Below, piece after piece: positions 8,589-17,987 of a stretch of 64,000 bases of DNA (positions are counted from its first letter, which is position 1; every line of letters starts with the position of its first letter). Source of the stretch: Verrucomicrobiia bacterium (lineage in GTDB: Bacteria > Verrucomicrobiota > Verrucomicrobiia > Limisphaerales > JADLHS01); the NCBI GenBank assembly GCA_026125285.1, contig JAHCLO010000002.1, positions 275,115 to 339,114 on the forward strand. Direction: 5' to 3'. The position numbers were made by a program, and so were the translations under genes. The notes beneath the pieces are model-generated. The model worked only from the letters and a program-made list of their open reading frames with translations, made no database searches and was not told the origin of the DNA.

Positions 8589-9674
8589 TTAATGAAGGCG
8601 TGGGGTAGCTGGCAGCAGCACGGTGAAGGTGGTGCCCCGATTCAACTGGCTTCGTACCCTGATGTCACCCTTATGTTCCTGGAGAATCCGCCGGGTGATC
8701 GGCAAGCCAAGACCGGTGCCATGGTTCTTGGTGGTGAAGAACGGCTCGAACAGGCGCGCAAGATTCTCCGGCGCCACGCCAATGCCGGAATCGGTGATGG
8801 TGACGCAGATTTGCGGCGGCTCATTCGGCGATGCCGAAGGGATCACGGTTTCGGTACCCACCGTGAGTGATCCCTTGGTATCCATGGCTTCGACCGCATT
8901 CAGGAACAGGTTCACGAACGCCTGTTCGAGTTGGTAGTTGTCGCCCTGGATGGCGTCGGGTGCGGCATTAAACTGGCGGCGCAGGGTGATCTGTTTGTTC
9001 TCCAATTGATGCTGCACCATGCGCAGGGAATGGTCGAGGATGTCATGCAACTGCAAGGCGGCGAAGGTTGGCTGGGCCGGCGCGCCAAACTTGAGCAACT
9101 GGCTGACCATGGCATCAATGCGCCGCATCTCGCGCCGGACCACGTCCGTTAGTTCCGAGTCCTGGCTCTTCTCAATCAGCAAATCCACGAAGGTCTTGAC
9201 GGCCACGAGCGCGTTCTTGATTTCGTGGCCCAGGCTGGCCGACAACGTACCGATGCTGGCCAACCGGTCGAGCCGGCGCAGGTTCTCCTCCAACTGCCGG
9301 GCCACGCTGAGGTCGTTCAACACCAGCACCACCTGACAGGAACCGGCGCAGGGGATGGGCACGGCGCTGACATGTAGCTCAGTGGAGCCGCCGAAGCGGG
9401 GAGGCAAGCCCAGGCTCTGGTCAGTGAGCGCAGTCCCGGTGGAAACCACCTTGCGGATGATAGCCTGGAGCGGCTCCGGCAGGGGCGAAAGCGAACCTTG
9501 CGCGAGACTGCTGGCCGGCAACTGAAGTAGGAGGGCGGCTCTGGGCGTACAGGCCACGAGACAACCCTGTGAATCCACGACCAGCACGCCGCACGTGAGA
9601 CAATCATGCAGGGCGCTGGTTAGGTTCAACGCCTCGTGGCTCTCAGTTTTTTGGCTATGACTTGGGACTGACAC
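8589..9674 (-). CDS. Soluble PAS-type sensor histidine kinase
   Basis: 361 residues with no membrane segment. A PAS-like sensor (about 20-125) is followed by a HisKA dimerisation domain with H150 in SLGHEIKNALVAVKTF. The catalytic ATPase domain has an N-box (QAFVNLFLNAVEAM), G1 (DSGIGV), F (FEPFFTT) and G2 (GTGLGL). No response regulator gene adjoins it. The H-box region resembles that of the PhcR-like protein at 16722-17987, suggesting related kinase modules. Confidence 0.9.
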   Translation of the reverse strand: MSVPSHSQKTESHEALNLTSALHDCLTCGVLVVDSQGCLVACTPRAALLLQLPASSLAQGSLSPLPEPLQAIIRKVVSTGTALTDQSLGLPPRFGGSTELHVSAVPIPCAGSCQVVLVLNDLSVARQLEENLRRLDRLASIGTLSASLGHEIKNALVAVKTFVDLLIEKSQDSELTDVVRREMRRIDAMVSQLLKFGAPAQPTFAALQLHDILDHSLRMVQHQLENKQITLRRQFNAAPDAIQGDNYQLEQAFVNLFLNAVEAMDTKGSLTVGTETVIPSASPNEPPQICVTITDSGIGVAPENLARLFEPFFTTKNHGTGLGLPITRRILQEHKGDIRVRSQLNRGTTFTVLLPATPRLH

Positions 9675-10022: not shown

Positions 10023-10889
10023 ATGAAGGTTTCACAGGAAACTGTATGCTTGCGCTCCCAGGGGGATGAGCTTGCGGGTGTATTGTTTCTTCCCGAAGGC
10101 GATCATCCGGCCCCGGTCTTGATCATCTGCCACGGGGCGGGTGAGTTTAAGGAGAACTATTTCGAGTTGTGCGAGGTGCTGGCTGGGCGCGGAGTGGCGA
10201 CCCTCGCGATTGACATGCATGGGCACGGAGCCAGCGCCGGAGAACGGTATTATGTAAACATGCGGCAGTGGGTCGCGGATATTCGGGCCGCCATTGATTA
10301 CCTGCTGACGAATCCTAGAATTGACGGCCAGCGCATCGGGGCCTTTGGGCTTTCTTCGGGTGGAACGGCGATACTTGAGGCGGCAATGGTGGAACCGAGA
10401 CTCAAAGCATTGGTGACCTTGGACGCCACGGTCCGAGATTCACTCCCGTGGGGTACGGCATTGTTCCTTAAGCTTTTAGTGGTTTGTGGTCGAATCAAGA
10501 AGTGGCTGACTTGTCGCGATCTGCGGGTGCCGCTCGCGAAGTTTTCGACGGGTTGCAAGATGGCGGCGGACCCTGACGTGGAAGAGCGGTTGCAGTCGGA
10601 CCCGCGTTTGCGGGCGGCGTTTATGGACTTCCCGTTTCCGGGAGCGGAACAGGCTTTTTTCGTGGATACCTTGAGCCGTGTCTCCCAAATCGCGGTGCCC
10701 ACGTTGGTGTTGTGGGGTGAGGAGGACAAATTTGATTCACCGGAAACCGGCCGGTTGTTGTACGAAGCCCTCGCTTGCCGGAAGCAATTTCACATCATTC
10801 AGGGCAATGGCCACGTTGGTCATTTGGACCGGAATCGGGACAAAGTGTTTACGTTGACGGCGGACTGGGTTTTGAGGACTCTGGTATAG
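10023..10889 (+). CDS. Alpha/beta hydrolase (dienelactone-hydrolase/serine aminopeptidase-like)
   Basis: 288 residues. An oxyanion-hole segment (IICHGAGEFKEN) precedes the nucleophile elbow GLSSGG (Ser111). An acid-bearing strand WGEEDKFDSPETG and a C-terminal HVGHLDRN His complete the triad. A helical cap lies between about 140 and 215. There is no export signal. The following DUF2156 gene begins 4 to 37 bases after its stop, so the two are probably co-transcribed. The substrate is unknown; a small ester or peptide is typical of the fold. Confidence 0.85.
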   Translation: MKVSQETVCLRSQGDELAGVLFLPEGDHPAPVLIICHGAGEFKENYFELCEVLAGRGVATLAIDMHGHGASAGERYYVNMRQWVADIRAAIDYLLTNPRIDGQRIGAFGLSSGGTAILEAAMVEPRLKALVTLDATVRDSLPWGTALFLKLLVVCGRIKKWLTCRDLRVPLAKFSTGCKMAADPDVEERLQSDPRLRAAFMDFPFPGAEQAFFVDTLSRVSQIAVPTLVLWGEEDKFDSPETGRLLYEALACRKQFHIIQGNGHVGHLDRNRDKVFTLTADWVLRTLV

Positions 10890-10926
10890 TAAAGTGCGGC
10901 TCATTCACACCGCCGCGCACCTCAAC

Positions 10927-12087
10927 ATGGGAATCAGAGTTATTGAGGCACAAGCAGCCCGGGCGCTGGGCGCAAAGGAGAAATGGGCACTGCTGTCACC
11001 TTTTCTTCGGCAACACGGCCGCGAGGCCCTGGCTTATGCCACGCTCCAGGCTGGCATGGAGTACTTCATTGATGAGTGTGGTTATATCGCCTACACCACC
11101 GTGCGCCACCCCGTTTTTGCCCGACGTCCCAAGCGCATCGCCTTTTCGGACCCGGTGTGTGCGCCGGAACATTGGGCGCGCATATTGCGTAATTTTCTTT
11201 CGCTCGGTTCGTCGGCGGCGTTCGCCTGTGTTTCAGAACCCTGCGCGGAGGTGCTACGCAGCCTGAAATTCAAGGTCAATTGCATCGGCTACGAATCGGA
11301 GTTGCCCATCCAGTCGTACAACACCCAGGGCAATTGGAAGGAACTGGACCTCATCAAACGCGCGCGAAACGAGGCTCGCCGCCAAGCGATTGTCATTCGG
11401 GAGGAAGAAATCGAGACGGTTAACCGGGACGAGTTGGCCGCCGTTTCCTCCCGGTGGATGGGCAACAAGAAGGTGAACGACCGGGAAATCTGGATTTACG
11501 CCCGGAGGCCGGTGTTTGAAGCCGAGGAAGATGTCCGCAAGTTCGTGGCTTATGATCGCGAGGGACGCGTGGCGGGCTTTGCTTTTTACGATCCCATGTA
11601 TCGCGAGGGGCGGGTCCGCGGTTACTCGGCCAACATTCTGCGTTGCGACGAGAGCCGCTTCGGTCGCCTGGCCACGGCACTCCACATGGAGGCGATCGAA
11701 AGATTCAGGCCCGAGGGAAAGGAAGTGTTGAACCTGAACCTGGCGCCGTTCGTTAAACTAGAGAGCGGGCGCTTCAACGACGATTTTGGAGCAAGGCTCT
11801 TCTTCAAGTTGAGCGCTCGCTACGGCAATGACATCTACAATTTTCAAGGCCTGGCCTTTCACAAGTCGAAATACCGCGGTCAGGAAAGGAGTCTTTACTT
11901 TGCCTCGAACCGCCTCTGGCCGGCGAACGACATTTACCTGGCGTTTCTTTCCGCGGACATTACGCGGAATTACTTCGGCACGCTTGGACAATTGCTGAGG
12001 GGCATGGTAGCTGCTAAGAAGAGTCCGAAGCTTGCTCTCCCAGCCAGCGATCAGAATACGGGCGCTCCGGACCGGGGCTCCTCGTAA
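10927..12087 (+). CDS. DUF2156 (phosphatidylglycerol lysyltransferase C-terminal-like) protein
   Basis: About 386 residues from ATG 10927; a GTG at 10894 is an alternative start. The tandem GNAT-like fold of MprF soluble domains is suggested by FIDECGYIAY, an IGYESELPI strand, the basic helix LIKRARNEARRQ, and the C-terminal LNLNLAPFVKLES...LFFKLSARYGN...GLAFHKSKYRG. MprF proteins use aminoacyl-tRNA to modify membrane lipids. Stand-alone DUF2156 proteins lack the flippase half and their acceptor is often unknown. No membrane segment is seen. Its neighbour hydrolase could remove or process the product (inference). Confidence 0.75.
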   Translation: MGIRVIEAQAARALGAKEKWALLSPFLRQHGREALAYATLQAGMEYFIDECGYIAYTTVRHPVFARRPKRIAFSDPVCAPEHWARILRNFLSLGSSAAFACVSEPCAEVLRSLKFKVNCIGYESELPIQSYNTQGNWKELDLIKRARNEARRQAIVIREEEIETVNRDELAAVSSRWMGNKKVNDREIWIYARRPVFEAEEDVRKFVAYDREGRVAGFAFYDPMYREGRVRGYSANILRCDESRFGRLATALHMEAIERFRPEGKEVLNLNLAPFVKLESGRFNDDFGARLFFKLSARYGNDIYNFQGLAFHKSKYRGQERSLYFASNRLWPANDIYLAFLSADITRNYFGTLGQLLRGMVAAKKSPKLALPASDQNTGAPDRGSS

Positions 12088-12107
12088 AGCCGTAGAGCCG
12101 TTCACCA

Positions 12108-13571
12108 ATGCGCGAGACTATGAAAACGAAATACACGCGGAGAATCACGGCGGCCATCGGGCTGATCGTGCTCATGATGTTTGGACCTCGCGTCCTTTCC
12201 GGCGAGGCAATAGCACCACCCAAATCCGATTTCATGCGCTTCCTGGAACAGGATTATCTGCTCGGTGATTGGGGCGGCCTTCGCACCTCACTCCAGGAGC
12301 ATGGGGTGGATTTTGAATTCGTATATTTCGCCGCCGTGCCGATGAATCTCGACGGCGGACTCAAACGCGGCGGGGTGTATCAGGGCGGCTTGCTCATGAT
12401 GCTGGATCTGTATTCGGACAAACTGGTCGGATACGAGGGCGGCCAACTCCATGTGGGCGGACTTTCCATTCACAACCAATCCGACTTCGCCGAAAAGTAC
12501 ATCGGCGACCTGAATAAAGTCAGCATGCTGGATTTTCCAGATACCCTCCATCTTTGGGAGCTTTGGTATGAACAGAAGTTCTGGGGCAATCGAGTCGCCT
12601 TGAAGGCGGGCCAGTTGGTGATTGACCGGGACTTCGTGTTACCCGAGTACTACAACTCGCTTGCCGGCATCAGTCTGCTGAATCAAACCTTTTTTTACCC
12701 CACGATGGCATTCAACGTCTATGACCAGCCCTTCTTTCCCGTGGGCCATCATGCGCTGGCTTCCACTCCGTACGGCGCTCCTGGAGCGCGATTGCGGCTG
12801 GACCCCTGCTCCCACGCTTACTTTCAAGTGGGCGTTTACGATGGCAACCCGGATCGCAAACACGGAGGCACGCACGTCAAACTCAGCAGTGAGGAAGGCG
12901 CGTTGATTTATGCCGAACTGACGCTGAAGATCAATCAAAGCGATGCCGCCACGCGGCCACCCGGCAATCTCAAGCTGGGCGGCTACTATCACACCGACGA
13001 TTTCTTCGACATGTACCAGGGATCGTTTGTGGCATTCGACAACTATGTTGCCGCCCAAGGCTTTCCCCTGCCGCCCATTTCCGGAGGCACCGCACGGGAA
13101 CACGAGGGCAACTACGGGATTTATTTTCTTGCCGACCAAATGCTCTGGCGCGAGGTCGGCAAAGATGATCCGGCTCAACAGGGATTGACCGGTTTCTTCC
13201 GGGCGGCATTTGCTCCCAAGGACCGCAATCTTGCCCAGTTCGGCATTGATGGTGGCCTGGTGTACAAAGGGCTGATTCCCACCCGCGACTGGGACACGCT
13301 GGCTTTTGGGGTGTCCTATCTGGAGATCAGTGACGATCTGCGGAAAGCGCAACGGGATATCAACGCGCTGATCACCAGTTTCGGTGGCCCCGCGCCATTC
13401 TCGAAGATCGCCGATCACGAAACAGTCGTAGAACTCAGCTACAAAGCCCAACTGACTGCGTGGTGGACCGTGCAGCCAAGCCTTCAACGTGTATTCCACC
13501 CGGGGGGACGAATCTTTAACGACACGGCCGATGCGTGGGCGTTCATCGTTCAAACTTCATTGCGATTCTGA
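12108..13571 (+). CDS. OprB-family carbohydrate-selective porin
   Basis: 487 residues with a signal peptide (basic MKTKYTRR, then a hydrophobic stretch); ATG 12120 is an equally good start. The mature N-terminus has the OprB hallmark LLGDWGGLRTSLQEHGVDF. It is followed by alternating beta-strand sequence typical of a 16-stranded barrel and a terminal Phe (TSLRF), as expected for BamA-dependent insertion. It should allow sugar diffusion across the outer membrane. It lies 20 bases after the DUF2156 gene. Confidence 0.88.
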   Translation: MRETMKTKYTRRITAAIGLIVLMMFGPRVLSGEAIAPPKSDFMRFLEQDYLLGDWGGLRTSLQEHGVDFEFVYFAAVPMNLDGGLKRGGVYQGGLLMMLDLYSDKLVGYEGGQLHVGGLSIHNQSDFAEKYIGDLNKVSMLDFPDTLHLWELWYEQKFWGNRVALKAGQLVIDRDFVLPEYYNSLAGISLLNQTFFYPTMAFNVYDQPFFPVGHHALASTPYGAPGARLRLDPCSHAYFQVGVYDGNPDRKHGGTHVKLSSEEGALIYAELTLKINQSDAATRPPGNLKLGGYYHTDDFFDMYQGSFVAFDNYVAAQGFPLPPISGGTAREHEGNYGIYFLADQMLWREVGKDDPAQQGLTGFFRAAFAPKDRNLAQFGIDGGLVYKGLIPTRDWDTLAFGVSYLEISDDLRKAQRDINALITSFGGPAPFSKIADHETVVELSYKAQLTAWWTVQPSLQRVFHPGGRIFNDTADAWAFIVQTSLRF

Positions 13572-13871
13572 ATTGTGGCTCGTTTGCAGTTTCGGCCGTT
13601 TCCTGCGCCGCCGGAGTTGAAGGTCTCCGGTTCATGCGGCGGAGGATCAGTGGCTTCGTGTACCAGTTGGGTTGCACTGGTCCAGAGCGACGGTTGGAAC
13701 GTGACAGGTTTACCCCTGAAAGGAAGCGATGGCTGGCGGCGGATTCTGCTCCCTTGTTGGCGCGGATAATGTTATCGGACATCGGGGTCGCGGTGGATGG
13801 GCTTGGGGCGACCGGCGGGCCTGCAAACCGCCGCAAAATGACCGGTGGGTGTGGGTGGCGTGATTGAACCG
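13572..13871. other. Intergenic region upstream of the Phc-like operon
   Basis: About 300 bases with no convincing gene. It separates the porin from the methyltransferase gene and should contain the promoter of the signalling operon; no clear sigma-70 boxes or operator palindromes were identified by eye. Confidence 0.4.
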
Positions 13872-15302
13872 ATGGGCTCAACAAATTCCGAAATCAAAGA
13901 CAGCTCGGTGACTGGTCAAACCAGCCAGGGGATGGACTTTCGCGCCCCGTTGCTGAGATTGACCCGCCATCTGGCGGTGTTTGAAATCTACAACCCGGAA
14001 TTGGTCCTGCGGGCTTCGGAGGTCTTCAAGGATTTTCAGATCGTGTTCCAAAACCGGACCGTTTATGCGGGCCGGGCGGTGATTCGCAATCTACTCAACG
14101 CCGGTTTGGGAACCGTCTGCGAAGTCACTTTGCACGAAGGCGCGTGGAAGGATCTGGCTTTTTCCCCGGAGATGGTGGCCAACGGCGCGCTGCGCAAACA
14201 GTTTGGCGACTTCCTTGAAGAGTGGCAGAAGCTTTACCGGGTGCTGCCCGAGTACAAAGTGATCATCGCCGACATGCAGAGTTTCTTCTCGGACCTGCGG
14301 CTCTCACTGGACCAAGTGGAACTGGGGGTCAAGGCCACATCGGCTGCCAATGAGTCTCAGTTGGAACAAGCTGTCGCGGAAGAATTGAGCCAGCCCATCA
14401 TCCCGTGCGTCAACGTGCTCTTTGAGAAATTTGAGAACATCGCCGACACACTGGACGCGGAACAGCGCCCGGCCCATCAGAATTACATGCGGCGGCTTAT
14501 GCATCCGCTGGTGCTGTGCGCACCGTTCGCCAACCGCACCTTCCACAAGCCGCTGGGCTACGCGGGCGACTATGAAATGGTGAACATGATCGCGCGGAAT
14601 CAGCACGAGGGCGGCTCTTTGTTCGCCAAGGTCGTCAATACCTGGTTCCTCCGGCAGGCGCCGGCGGAGGCGCATCGCAACCGAATTCAATACCTGGAAG
14701 CGATGCTCGCCACCGAGACACTCCGAGTCCGCCGGCTTGGTCGCCCGACGCGCATCTTCAACCTGGCCTGTGGCCCGGCTCAAGAAATTCAGGCTTTTCT
14801 GGCCAAGAATCCGTTGTGCGAGCAAGCCCAACTCACGCTGCTGGATTTTAACGAGGAGACGTTGCGCTACCTCCGCAACATCCTGGACAACCTCAAGCAT
14901 CGGCATTCGCGTGGGACGCCGATCGAGTACATCAAACGATCGGTTCACCACATCATCAAGGAAAGCAGCCGGTCGAAGGATCCCGCCAGCGAGTTGCAGT
15001 ATGACTTGGTGTACTGCGCCGGACTATTCGATTATCTCTCAAACCAGGTTTGCCAGCGTTTGATGAACATCATGTACGACTCCGTGGCGCCCGGCGGTTT
15101 GCTGGTGGCCACCAATGTCGAACCCAGCAACCCGATGCGCAACGGGATGGAGCACTTGCTGGATTGGCATTTGATTTACCGAACCGCCGCGCAGATGCGC
15201 ACACTGACCCCCTCCCGCGCCCGGGCGGAGGAGGTTTGTGTCCGGGCGGATGCCACGGGCGTAAACGTGTTTTTGGAAGTTCGCAAACCGGATCATGACT
15301 GA
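13872..15302 (+). CDS. PhcB-like SAM-dependent methyltransferase (fatty-acid methyl-ester signal synthase candidate)
   Basis: About 476 residues from ATG 13872; a GTG at 13845 is an alternative start. The N-terminal part (to about 130) is a PilZ-like or uncharacterised domain (FEIYNPELVLRASEVF...RAVIRNLL). A helical middle precedes a class I methyltransferase core: SAM-binding IFNLACGPAQEIQAF, acidic strand LTLLDFNEETLRYL, and YDLVYCAGLFDYLSNQ. This architecture matches PhcB of Ralstonia, which methylates 3-hydroxy fatty acids to make 3-OH PAME/MAME quorum signals. Its stop overlaps the next gene by 8 bases, and a sensor kinase and a response regulator follow, as in the phc operon. The exact signal is unknown. 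Confidence 0.8.
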   Translation: MGSTNSEIKDSSVTGQTSQGMDFRAPLLRLTRHLAVFEIYNPELVLRASEVFKDFQIVFQNRTVYAGRAVIRNLLNAGLGTVCEVTLHEGAWKDLAFSPEMVANGALRKQFGDFLEEWQKLYRVLPEYKVIIADMQSFFSDLRLSLDQVELGVKATSAANESQLEQAVAEELSQPIIPCVNVLFEKFENIADTLDAEQRPAHQNYMRRLMHPLVLCAPFANRTFHKPLGYAGDYEMVNMIARNQHEGGSLFAKVVNTWFLRQAPAEAHRNRIQYLEAMLATETLRVRRLGRPTRIFNLACGPAQEIQAFLAKNPLCEQAQLTLLDFNEETLRYLRNILDNLKHRHSRGTPIEYIKRSVHHIIKESSRSKDPASELQYDLVYCAGLFDYLSNQVCQRLMNIMYDSVAPGGLLVATNVEPSNPMRNGMEHLLDWHLIYRTAAQMRTLTPSRARAEEVCVRADATGVNVFLEVRKPDHD

Positions 15303-16707
15303 AGTCCTGACATCACGCTCGCCGGAATTCCAAGCCGCTTTCCTCGCCAATGAACAGCAGGAAAGGGTCAACACGGGCAAGGTGGCTTCGGCCCTCGTAT
15401 TCTTCCTCATGCCTTTCGGTTGGGCGCTGGATTTCTTCATGTACGAAGAGTCCTTGGGCACTTTTCTGGTGTTGCGTTTGATCTGCTCCGCGCTGGCCGC
15501 GGTTCTTTTCTACCTGCACACCACCGAGTTCGGGAAACAGAATTACCGGCTTTTGGGGCTGCCGATTGCTTTGCTGCCGGCGGTGTTTATCGCGGTGATG
15601 ATTTATATGAAGGAGGGTCCGGCTTCACCCTATTATGCGGGACTAAACCTGATCCTTCTGGCCGTGAGCGTTGTGGTTCATTGGAGCACGCGCGAATCGC
15701 TGCTCGCCGTCTTGGGCGTGCTTCTGATCTACATAACGGTGTGCGTCCTGCATCGGCACAACCACCCAGGCGACCTCGTAGGAGGAATTTTCTACAGCAA
15801 CCTGATTTTCATGATTGAGACCGGCATCATCGTCGTGGTGGGCAACTACTTCTACAACCGGTTGCGCTTTCGCGAGTTTTCGGCGCGTTATGAACTGGCT
15901 CAGAACAAACAGACCCTCGAACAGGCCAACCAGAAGCTCGACACCCAAAACAAAGAACTGGCTGACACCCTGCAGAAACTCACCGAGGCGGAATCCCAAC
16001 TGGTGCAGTCCGAGAAGATGGCTTCCCTTGGCCGCATGAGCGCTGGCATCATTCATGAAATCAATAATCCCCTGAACTTTGCCACCACCGGCCTGTTCAC
16101 GCTCAAGAAGAAGGGTAAACACCTGCCCGCAGAACAGCGCGGAGAATACGAGGAGATTATCCGCGATGTGGGCGATGGTATCACCCGCGTCCGGGACATC
16201 GTCTCGGATTTGCGCATGTTCACGCATCCGGACACCGATAGTCACGATGAGGTGGAGGTAAACGAAGTCGTCACTTCGGCCCTGCGCTTCATGAGCAGCG
16301 AATTGACGGACAAAGTGCGACTCGAACAAAACCTGCCGGCGGCGGGTCTGGCGATCCGCGGCAACAAGAACAAGTTGATCCATGTGCTAGTGAACCTGAT
16401 CCAGAATTCCTTGGATTCGCTGCTGGCCAAGACGTTCAATGGCGAGCAGCCGACCATCTGGCTCGAGGGGCGCAGAGAGCCAGGGGGCAGTTTTCTGGTC
16501 GTGCGGGACAATGGTCTCGGCATTGAGAGCCAGCACCTGGACAAGATTTTCGATCCCTTCTTTACCACCAAGGATGTGGGCCAGGGGATGGGCCTGGGCT
16601 TGAGTATATGTTATCGCATCATGGAAGAATGTCGCGGGCGGATTTCCGTGCGCACCGAACCGGGAAAGTTCTGCGAGTTTACGCTGGAATTCCCACCGCC
16701 GGCATGA
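15295..16707 (+). CDS. PhcS-like membrane sensor histidine kinase
   Basis: 470 residues. Six predicted membrane helices (about 31-50, 55-74, 86-105, 112-130, 134-152, 162-186) are followed by a coiled coil (195-240). The kinase core has H254 in GIIHEINNPLNF, N-box VLVNLIQNSLDSL, G1 DNGLGIE, F FDPFFTTKD and G2 GQGMGLGL. Lipid-like signals are sensed by kinases of this topology (PhcS, LqsS). The start overlaps the methyltransferase stop, so synthesis of signal and sensor is coupled. It probably phosphorylates the next gene product. Confidence 0.85.
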   Translation: MTEVLTSRSPEFQAAFLANEQQERVNTGKVASALVFFLMPFGWALDFFMYEESLGTFLVLRLICSALAAVLFYLHTTEFGKQNYRLLGLPIALLPAVFIAVMIYMKEGPASPYYAGLNLILLAVSVVVHWSTRESLLAVLGVLLIYITVCVLHRHNHPGDLVGGIFYSNLIFMIETGIIVVVGNYFYNRLRFREFSARYELAQNKQTLEQANQKLDTQNKELADTLQKLTEAESQLVQSEKMASLGRMSAGIIHEINNPLNFATTGLFTLKKKGKHLPAEQRGEYEEIIRDVGDGITRVRDIVSDLRMFTHPDTDSHDEVEVNEVVTSALRFMSSELTDKVRLEQNLPAAGLAIRGNKNKLIHVLVNLIQNSLDSLLAKTFNGEQPTIWLEGRREPGGSFLVVRDNGLGIESQHLDKIFDPFFTTKDVGQGMGLGLSICYRIMEECRGRISVRTEPGKFCEFTLEFPPPA

Positions 16708-16721
16708 GAAGAAACCGTTGA

Positions 16722-17987
16722 ATGATCCCGGCCATGGAATCACAGTACGATTACAAGCAGTTCGCCATCCTTTACGTGGACGACGAGGAGAACTCGCTTA
16801 AGGCGTTCGCCCGCGCGTTCGCCGATGAGTTTCGGATTTTCACGGCCCCCACTGCCCAGGAGGGGCTGAAGCTCCTGGAACAGCACCGCCAGGAAATCGG
16901 CCTGCTCATGACCGACCAGCGCATGCCGGGGGAAAAGGGCGTTTGGTTGTTGGAACGCGCCCGGCAGTTAGAGCCGCGCATGATCCGCATCCTGGCCACC
17001 GCCTACGCGGACATGGACGCCGCCATCTCCGCCGTGAACACCGGGGCCATCTACAAATACGTCACCAAGCCGTGGGACCCCGAACAACTCGAACAAACGC
17101 TGAAACACGCCCTCGAGTTTTTCATGGTGCAACGCGAGCGCGACCAGTTGCTCTTCGAGAAGATGTCGGTCTTGCACAACATGATGATCGCCGACCGGCT
17201 TGTCAGTCTGGGGTTGCTGGCCGCCGGCCTGAGCCATCATATCCGCAATTCCCTGGTGGCGGTGAAAACCTTTCTGGACCTGGCGCCAGCCAAGATGGCA
17301 GAGGAGAAAGTGGATTTGAACGGCCTGCGGAATCCCGAATTCTGGAAAGACTATTACCAGAACGTTCAAAGCCAGGTGGAGAAGATCAACAACCTGCTCA
17401 AAGACCTTTGGGTGGCGTCCGAAGGCGGCGGCTCCCAGTTTGCGGATCGTGTCAAGTTGCACGAAATCGTGGCCGGGGTGGTGGCAGCATTGAAACCCGA
17501 ACTCGATACCAAGCAGATCGAAGTGGCGAATCAGATTCCCCCAGCTTTGCCAGAACTGAACGTGGACCGGCCAAAGTTCCAACGGCTCTTCGAATTGCTG
17601 CTCAAGGATGAACTGGCCAGCTTGCCGGCGGGCACGCGGATCACCCTGACGGCGGAGTTGCAGGAAGACGGCGCCAAGCCGGAAATTCAAGTTCAACTGA
17701 GCGACAATGGCCCCGGCCTGCCCGAGGAAGCCGTGCGCGTGCTGTTTGATCCCTTCGTTGTCCGCAGCGATACCCCCGCCGAGTACGGCATTCATTTGAT
17801 GGCCTGCTTCTTCATCGTGTACCATCACGGCGGCAAGATCGAAGCACAGAGCCAAACGGGGATCGGCACCACTTTCACACTGCGTTTGCCGCTCAACCCG
17901 GAGCGCGCCACGGTGGAACAAAACCAGGGGCTGCTGCAGAAATCCCTCCTCAACCAGACCTTCTGGGAGAAGTTGATTACCTCCTGA
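16722..17987 (+). CDS. PhcR-like response regulator with C-terminal histidine-kinase-type domain
   Basis: 421 residues. A receiver domain comes first (YVDDEE acidic pocket, phosphoacceptor D65 in LLMTDQRMPG, YVTKPW Lys). A kinase-like module follows: H172 in AGLSHHIRNSLVAVKTF and an ATPase-like domain with DNGPGLPEEAV and FDPFVVRSDTPAEYGIHL. The G2 loop is atypical, lacking GxGLGL. Receiver first and kinase second is the unusual order described for PhcR of Ralstonia. GAGAAG precedes ATG 16722 by about 9 bases; ATG 16734 is an alternative. No DNA-binding domain is present, so transcriptional output must pass through another regulator not in this window. Confidence 0.82.
   Translation: MIPAMESQYDYKQFAILYVDDEENSLKAFARAFADEFRIFTAPTAQEGLKLLEQHRQEIGLLMTDQRMPGEKGVWLLERARQLEPRMIRILATAYADMDAAISAVNTGAIYKYVTKPWDPEQLEQTLKHALEFFMVQRERDQLLFEKMSVLHNMMIADRLVSLGLLAAGLSHHIRNSLVAVKTFLDLAPAKMAEEKVDLNGLRNPEFWKDYYQNVQSQVEKINNLLKDLWVASEGGGSQFADRVKLHEIVAGVVAALKPELDTKQIEVANQIPPALPELNVDRPKFQRLFELLLKDELASLPAGTRITLTAELQEDGAKPEIQVQLSDNGPGLPEEAVRVLFDPFVVRSDTPAEYGIHLMACFFIVYHHGGKIEAQSQTGIGTTFTLRLPLNPERATVEQNQGLLQKSLLNQTFWEKLITS

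Follow-up and report, generated by a model that had tools for sequence, protein, structure and literature searches.

The locus raises the question of whether a cell-cell signalling operon of the Phc family is present in a Verrucomicrobiia bacterium and, if so, in what form. Three plus-strand genes were read from the ORF list at positions 13872-17987 of the window (the whole 64,000-nucleotide stretch that was analysed); their products are B, S and a third protein, of 476, 470 and 421 aa respectively. The S ORF overlaps the B ORF by 8 bp, the third ORF follows after a gap of 14 bp, and a GTG at 13845 is a possible alternative start of B. A preliminary description of the sequence had seen here tightly packed genes for a methyltransferase, a six-helix kinase and a receiver-kinase-like protein, and this was borne out by the ORFs, Pfam and hydropathy. 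On balance the window is judged to hold, with fair probability, a Phc-family cell-cell signalling operon in a B-S-(R/Q) form; its features are collected in Table 1.

Table 1. Coordinates of the operon and its domains in the window
Feature	Positions	Strand	Basis or remark
B, PhcB-like SAM-dependent methyltransferase	13872..15302	+	476 aa; 37-40% identity over ~97% length to Burkholderiales PhcB
Six-stranded PilZ-fold domain of B, residues 11-92, without both c-di-GMP motifs, holds R24	13902..14147	+	AlphaFold2 model (predicted)
Class I methyltransferase core of B, residues 291-430	14742..15161	+	Pfam Methyltransf_12/25; AlphaFold2 model against PDB
S, PhcS-like membrane histidine kinase, short form	15295..16707	+	470 aa; ~31% identity over full length to PhcS
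Six-helix sensor domain of S, common to PhcS, motif SPYYAGLNL	15295..15912	+	Alignments, hydropathy
HisKA-HATPase core of S, HK2 type, predicted phospho-accepting H254	16027..16698	+	Pfam, kinase tree, alignment
Third protein: receiver, linker and degenerate histidine kinase, PhcR/PhcQ co-homologue	16722..17987	+	421 aa
Receiver domain of third protein, residues 16-129, phospho-accepting D65, PhcQ-like DQRMP and KPW motifs	16767..17108	+	
Degenerate kinase half of third protein	17175..17903	+	Alignment and motif census

Homology to the Phc operon and spread in the phylum

The canonical operon is phcBSRQ, which has been described with its parts (PMC8578825). In a tblastn search of B against plasmids, one full-length match was obtained (38% identity over 97%, on a Paraburkholderia graminis plasmid), where an ATP-binding protein gene and two response-regulator genes come next. 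When named genomes were scanned by alignment, 570 relatives were found, and 80 Burkholderiales loci were among the matches listed (Paraburkholderia, Cupriavidus, Janthinobacterium, Duganella, Massilia, Nitrotoga and other genera). In nearly every one of these loci the methyltransferase gene is followed by those for kinase, receiver(-kinase) and receiver, which is the order of phcBSRQ. Cupriavidus operons of this kind have been described as Phc systems, and Cupriavidus phcA complements Ralstonia (PMC2842291, PMC2864759). None of 18 Burkholderiaceae loci fitted the published phcB/phcS/phcQ mutation spacings of R. solanacearum GMI1000, and Cupriavidus was therefore taken as reference; the sequences used for the Phc comparison were those of Cupriavidus and Paraburkholderia relatives, not of R. 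solanacearum itself. By this comparison the first gene of the operon encodes a methyltransferase of the PhcB type; B has a single homologue in the window's genome and likewise one in each of four named genomes. In the opposite direction, a PhcS query found S as its best match in the window region (208-216 bits, against ~105 bits for the next kinase).

Full-length B was found in 17 of 289 genomes of the phylum (E < 1e-60) and in 79 of 384 genomes of the same class (E < 1e-40), and its identity to 60 phylum relatives ranged from 31 to 61%. When the window and these 60 same-phylum loci were inspected with their flanks, a kinase gene and a receiver gene lay directly behind B in 57 of 61; the exceptions are two loci truncated at a contig end, one fragmentary locus and one with a lone divergent B. 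The earlier view that chance assembly is unlikely agrees with this count, and the argument then given for it, that the receiver-kinase order is rare, does not hold in this setting, as such proteins are common in these loci. The B and S trees were correlated (Mantel r 0.57, with 0 of 999 permutations as good), of which species history may explain part or may even be all that the correlation reflects.

By sequence comparison, the operon is truly homologous to the Phc operon and is kept together as a unit. The preliminary description had gone further and equated it with the exact Ralstonia phcB-phcS-phcR set and order; homology, order and retention as a unit stand, and the exact identity falls, both because the canonical operon has four genes, phcBSRQ, and because the third protein is not specifically PhcR. 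It is not a Phc quorum-sensing operon in the strict sense, with separate R and Q genes and PhcA as output. Only one receiver gene is present, and behind it lies a convergent lptD homologue, so that the operon ends after the third gene. The query for PhcA was the presumed phcA of a Cupriavidus genome, a LysR gene beside fur and close to phcBSRQ, which is the position described for C. metallidurans (PMC2864759). It had no match in the window's genome, which is ~95% complete, so that a gene may have been missed; seven LysR-type genes are present. The absence of phcA that had been stated for the window therefore extends, as far as this search shows, to the genome.

An OprB porin gene lies upstream, its end 300 bp short of B. 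It belongs to a tight plus-strand cluster (10023-13571) with genes for an alpha/beta hydrolase and an LPG_synthase_C-type acyl/aminoacyl transferase; the same cluster precedes B in relative loci L143 and L161 and partly in L162, and in L181 a transferase-porin pair stands elsewhere near the operon. For the hydrolase, an esterase role with the signal as substrate is conceivable. A PAS-HisKA-HATPase kinase gene (8589-9674, minus strand) lies ~4 kb upstream and recurs at similar places in L143, L144, L160, L176 and L199. PF07596, a family typical of Planctomycetes/Verrucomicrobia, was found at 24 places in the window's genome and at none in 14 control genomes; together with the kinship groups, this gives indirect support for the phylum.

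The sensor kinase and the third protein

In S, Pfam found HisKA and HATPase, and hydropathy gave about six hydrophobic helices, as in Cupriavidus PhcS. H254 lies in the alignment opposite Cupriavidus H231, which corresponds to H230, a residue shown to matter in Ralstonia PhcS (PMC11960443). With homology over its full length, the sensor motif, the conserved histidine and a kinase core in the PhcS clade, S is a membrane kinase of the PhcS type. In most phylum relatives, however, the second gene encodes a TM-HK1-REC-HK2 hybrid of ~900 aa (44 loci, against 13 with a short TM-HK, the window included); the hybrids share with the window the locus, the sensor, the HK2-type core and the third gene, and S differs from them in having no HK1-REC centre. 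In the kinase tree the window core, the other short forms and PhcS fell in one clade with HK2 (97*), not HK1, and in the tree of sensor plus HK2 the window was nested among hybrids (96*, 97*); this tree was rooted on PhcS for drawing only and gives no order of PhcS and the long forms. A single clade of the 11 short forms tested was rejected (p 0.003), as was an arrangement with the short forms and PhcS on one side of a branch (p 3.5e-7). The change between hybrid and short S happened more than once, and with a single origin of the short forms rejected, the window's S and Burkholderiales PhcS came to their similar shape by separate routes. Nested as it is among hybrid kinases, S is not a simple vertical PhcS. 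The short S of the window is most simply read as the result of losing the HK1-REC centre.

A search of the window's own genome for a partner carrying the absent HK1-REC block gave no obvious candidate, as 138 generic kinase/receiver matches flood it. At L202 (G121, same phylum, other class) the hybrid kinase seems to be divided between two genes, TM-HK1 and REC-HK2, and a PhcQ-like third gene was not seen there.

The third protein gave Pfam matches to Response_reg, then HisKA and HATPase, and a RERDQLL-type linker joins the receiver to the kinase-like half. Its resemblance is mixed. The receiver is on average 43.6% identical to PhcQ, against 39.5% to PhcR receivers, and in 53 of 56 loci PhcQ gave the higher whole-protein score; the kinase half aligns to PhcR only, and in some more distant relatives the third gene is recognisable only as a receiver, like PhcQ. 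AU tests of receiver plus linker, placed with PhcQ or with PhcR, gave p values of 0.63, 0.57 and 0.52. An assignment as PhcQ was dropped because these tests separate neither placement, and one simply as PhcR because receiver and linker are nearer PhcQ and the kinase half is degenerate; given the mixed resemblance and the trees, the protein is named a co-homologue of both.

In the kinase half the H-box (LSHHIRNSL) and DNGPG are kept and the N-box asparagine is replaced (LLLKDELA). Regular-expression counts over relatives gave the same picture (N-box asparagine missing in 40 of 41, DNG kept in 40 of 41, H-box kept in at least 28 of 41), and from the loss of the N-box asparagine the third protein is probably a pseudokinase. 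Ralstonia PhcQ binds and stabilises PhcA (PMC13320629). About eight relatives (L143, L144, L157, L160, L164, L179, L182, L188) carry after the third gene a receiver-GAF-PAS-kinase gene (~690 aa; L143:1870-3912 and L144:512-2611, both on the minus strand), not found in the window, whose product is a possible output or modulator.

Set beside phcBSRQ of Cupriavidus, Ralstonia and Paraburkholderia, the window has in common the gene order, homology of B and S over their full length, the six-helix sensor, receiver protein(s) after S, the phospho-accepting histidine and the counterpart of PhcB R22. It differs in having one receiver protein rather than two (R and Q), PhcQ-like in its receiver and degenerate in its kinase half, in a short S that arose separately among hybrid kinases, and in a genome without a PhcA match.

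The methyltransferase and its N-terminal domain

The residues of B that are invariant in the family, among them KPLGYAGD, CGPAxE and YCAGLFDYL, are present. Pfam gave weak, sub-cut-off class I methyltransferase matches, and the AlphaFold2 model (27 sequences, pLDDT 80) combines a class I methyltransferase with a beta barrel and a helical part. Its best PDB match (Z 18.8, 253 residues aligned) was 3ocj, a possible exported protein of Bordetella parapertussis, which likewise has a helical and a methyltransferase part; 3ocj, however, has 300 residues, is aligned only from model residue 75 on and is 16% identical. Sequence searches of the PDB with B and separately with its N-terminus gave nothing useful, and only the fold comparison was informative.

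The N-terminal 99 residues were modelled alone (pLDDT 83.8). With VIA-align the best 19 rows were all PilZ proteins (Z 10.8-9.2), with other folds at ~8; Foldseek gave an E of only 2.5e-3. The predicted model has the six-stranded barrel of PilZ proteins such as Alg44, YcgR, MrkH and BcsA. It differs from them in its binding motifs: the pair RxxxR and [DN]xSxxG was found together in none of 142 B proteins in a motif census, and c-di-GMP binding by B is therefore not expected. R24, which sits in this domain, is the conserved counterpart of R22 of Ralstonia PhcB; the R22C exchange there is reported to lie outside known functional domains and to lower signal production (PMC6989110). No link between PhcB and PilZ was found in the open literature searched, and a PilZ-fold N-terminus as the site of the R22C counterpart is a prediction that would be new for the whole PhcB family.

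Within the genus B is the least conserved of the three (61% identity, where S and the third protein have 76-77%), so that its substrate may differ. Five other genes of the region are 72-78% identical within the genus, and the N-terminal domain is the least conserved part of B (48%). In the locus pairs L015/L187 (G131) and L038/L145 (G552) the match to B contains one TAG, possibly where the match runs past a stop, a frameshift or recoding.

Proposed function, alternatives and wider meaning

The most likely function of the operon is lipid methyl-ester quorum sensing, and it likely works like Phc. B would methylate the carboxyl group of a lipid acid (a 3-hydroxy fatty acid or similar) to give a membrane-permeant ester, its activity possibly being tuned by the PilZ-fold domain. 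The six-helix sensor of S would bind the ester and control autophosphorylation of H254 in the HK2-type core, from where the phosphate would pass to D65 of the third protein. As a probable pseudokinase, this protein may then act as a phospho-switchable binding partner of an output protein, as PhcQ does for PhcA.

An unlikely alternative, still to be taken seriously, is that the same circuit serves another methylated carboxylate (of different chain or hydroxylation, or not a fatty acid), which would make it Phc-like without sensing of 3-hydroxy fatty-acid methyl esters. With PhcB, B shares only 38% identity, and its divergence is faster than that of S; the activity in C. metallidurans may come from a structural variant of 3-OH PAME (PMC2864759); SPYYAGLNL and all family-invariant residues of B, however, are common to PhcS and PhcB, for which a similar ligand is the simplest explanation. 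It is decidedly improbable that B instead modifies a cell component, by CheR-like protein methylation or lipid methylation, and so sets the sensitivity of S in an intracellular or envelope sensor. A CheR profile that 12 of 17 relatives of B match weakly, a PilZ-fold domain suggestive of local regulation and the fact that such a signal is not known from this phylum speak for it, but PhcB, the closest homologue with genetic evidence, makes an extracellular signal (PMC6989110). That a methyltransferase happens by chance to lie beside two-component genes unrelated to it, conceivable where kinase and receiver parts are as numerous as the 138 matches in this genome, is refuted by the conserved order, the PhcS match to S and the congruent trees.

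For the Phc-family operon as read here, a joint interpretation can be given about an even chance: the Phc-type circuit would be old and widespread outside Proteobacteria, with the TM-HK-REC-HK hybrid as its commonest sensor, short PhcS-like kinases arising by repeated loss of the central HK-REC, PhcQ as a receiver-pseudokinase remnant, PhcB as a PilZ-fold-regulated methyltransferase, and outputs other than PhcA. A large independent set of homologues, in about a fifth of the sampled genomes of this class, separates what is constant (B, sensor, PhcQ-like receiver) from what is optional (HK1-REC, an active third kinase, PhcA), and offers testable explanations for the R22C allele, through the PilZ-fold domain, and for PhcQ, as a pseudokinase remnant. 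Open-access papers searched held nothing relevant on phcB in this phylum and describe no Phc-type operon from it. The operon is the first concrete candidate in the phylum for lipid-ester quorum sensing, and signalling by lipid esters may be much commoner among bacteria than is now recognised.
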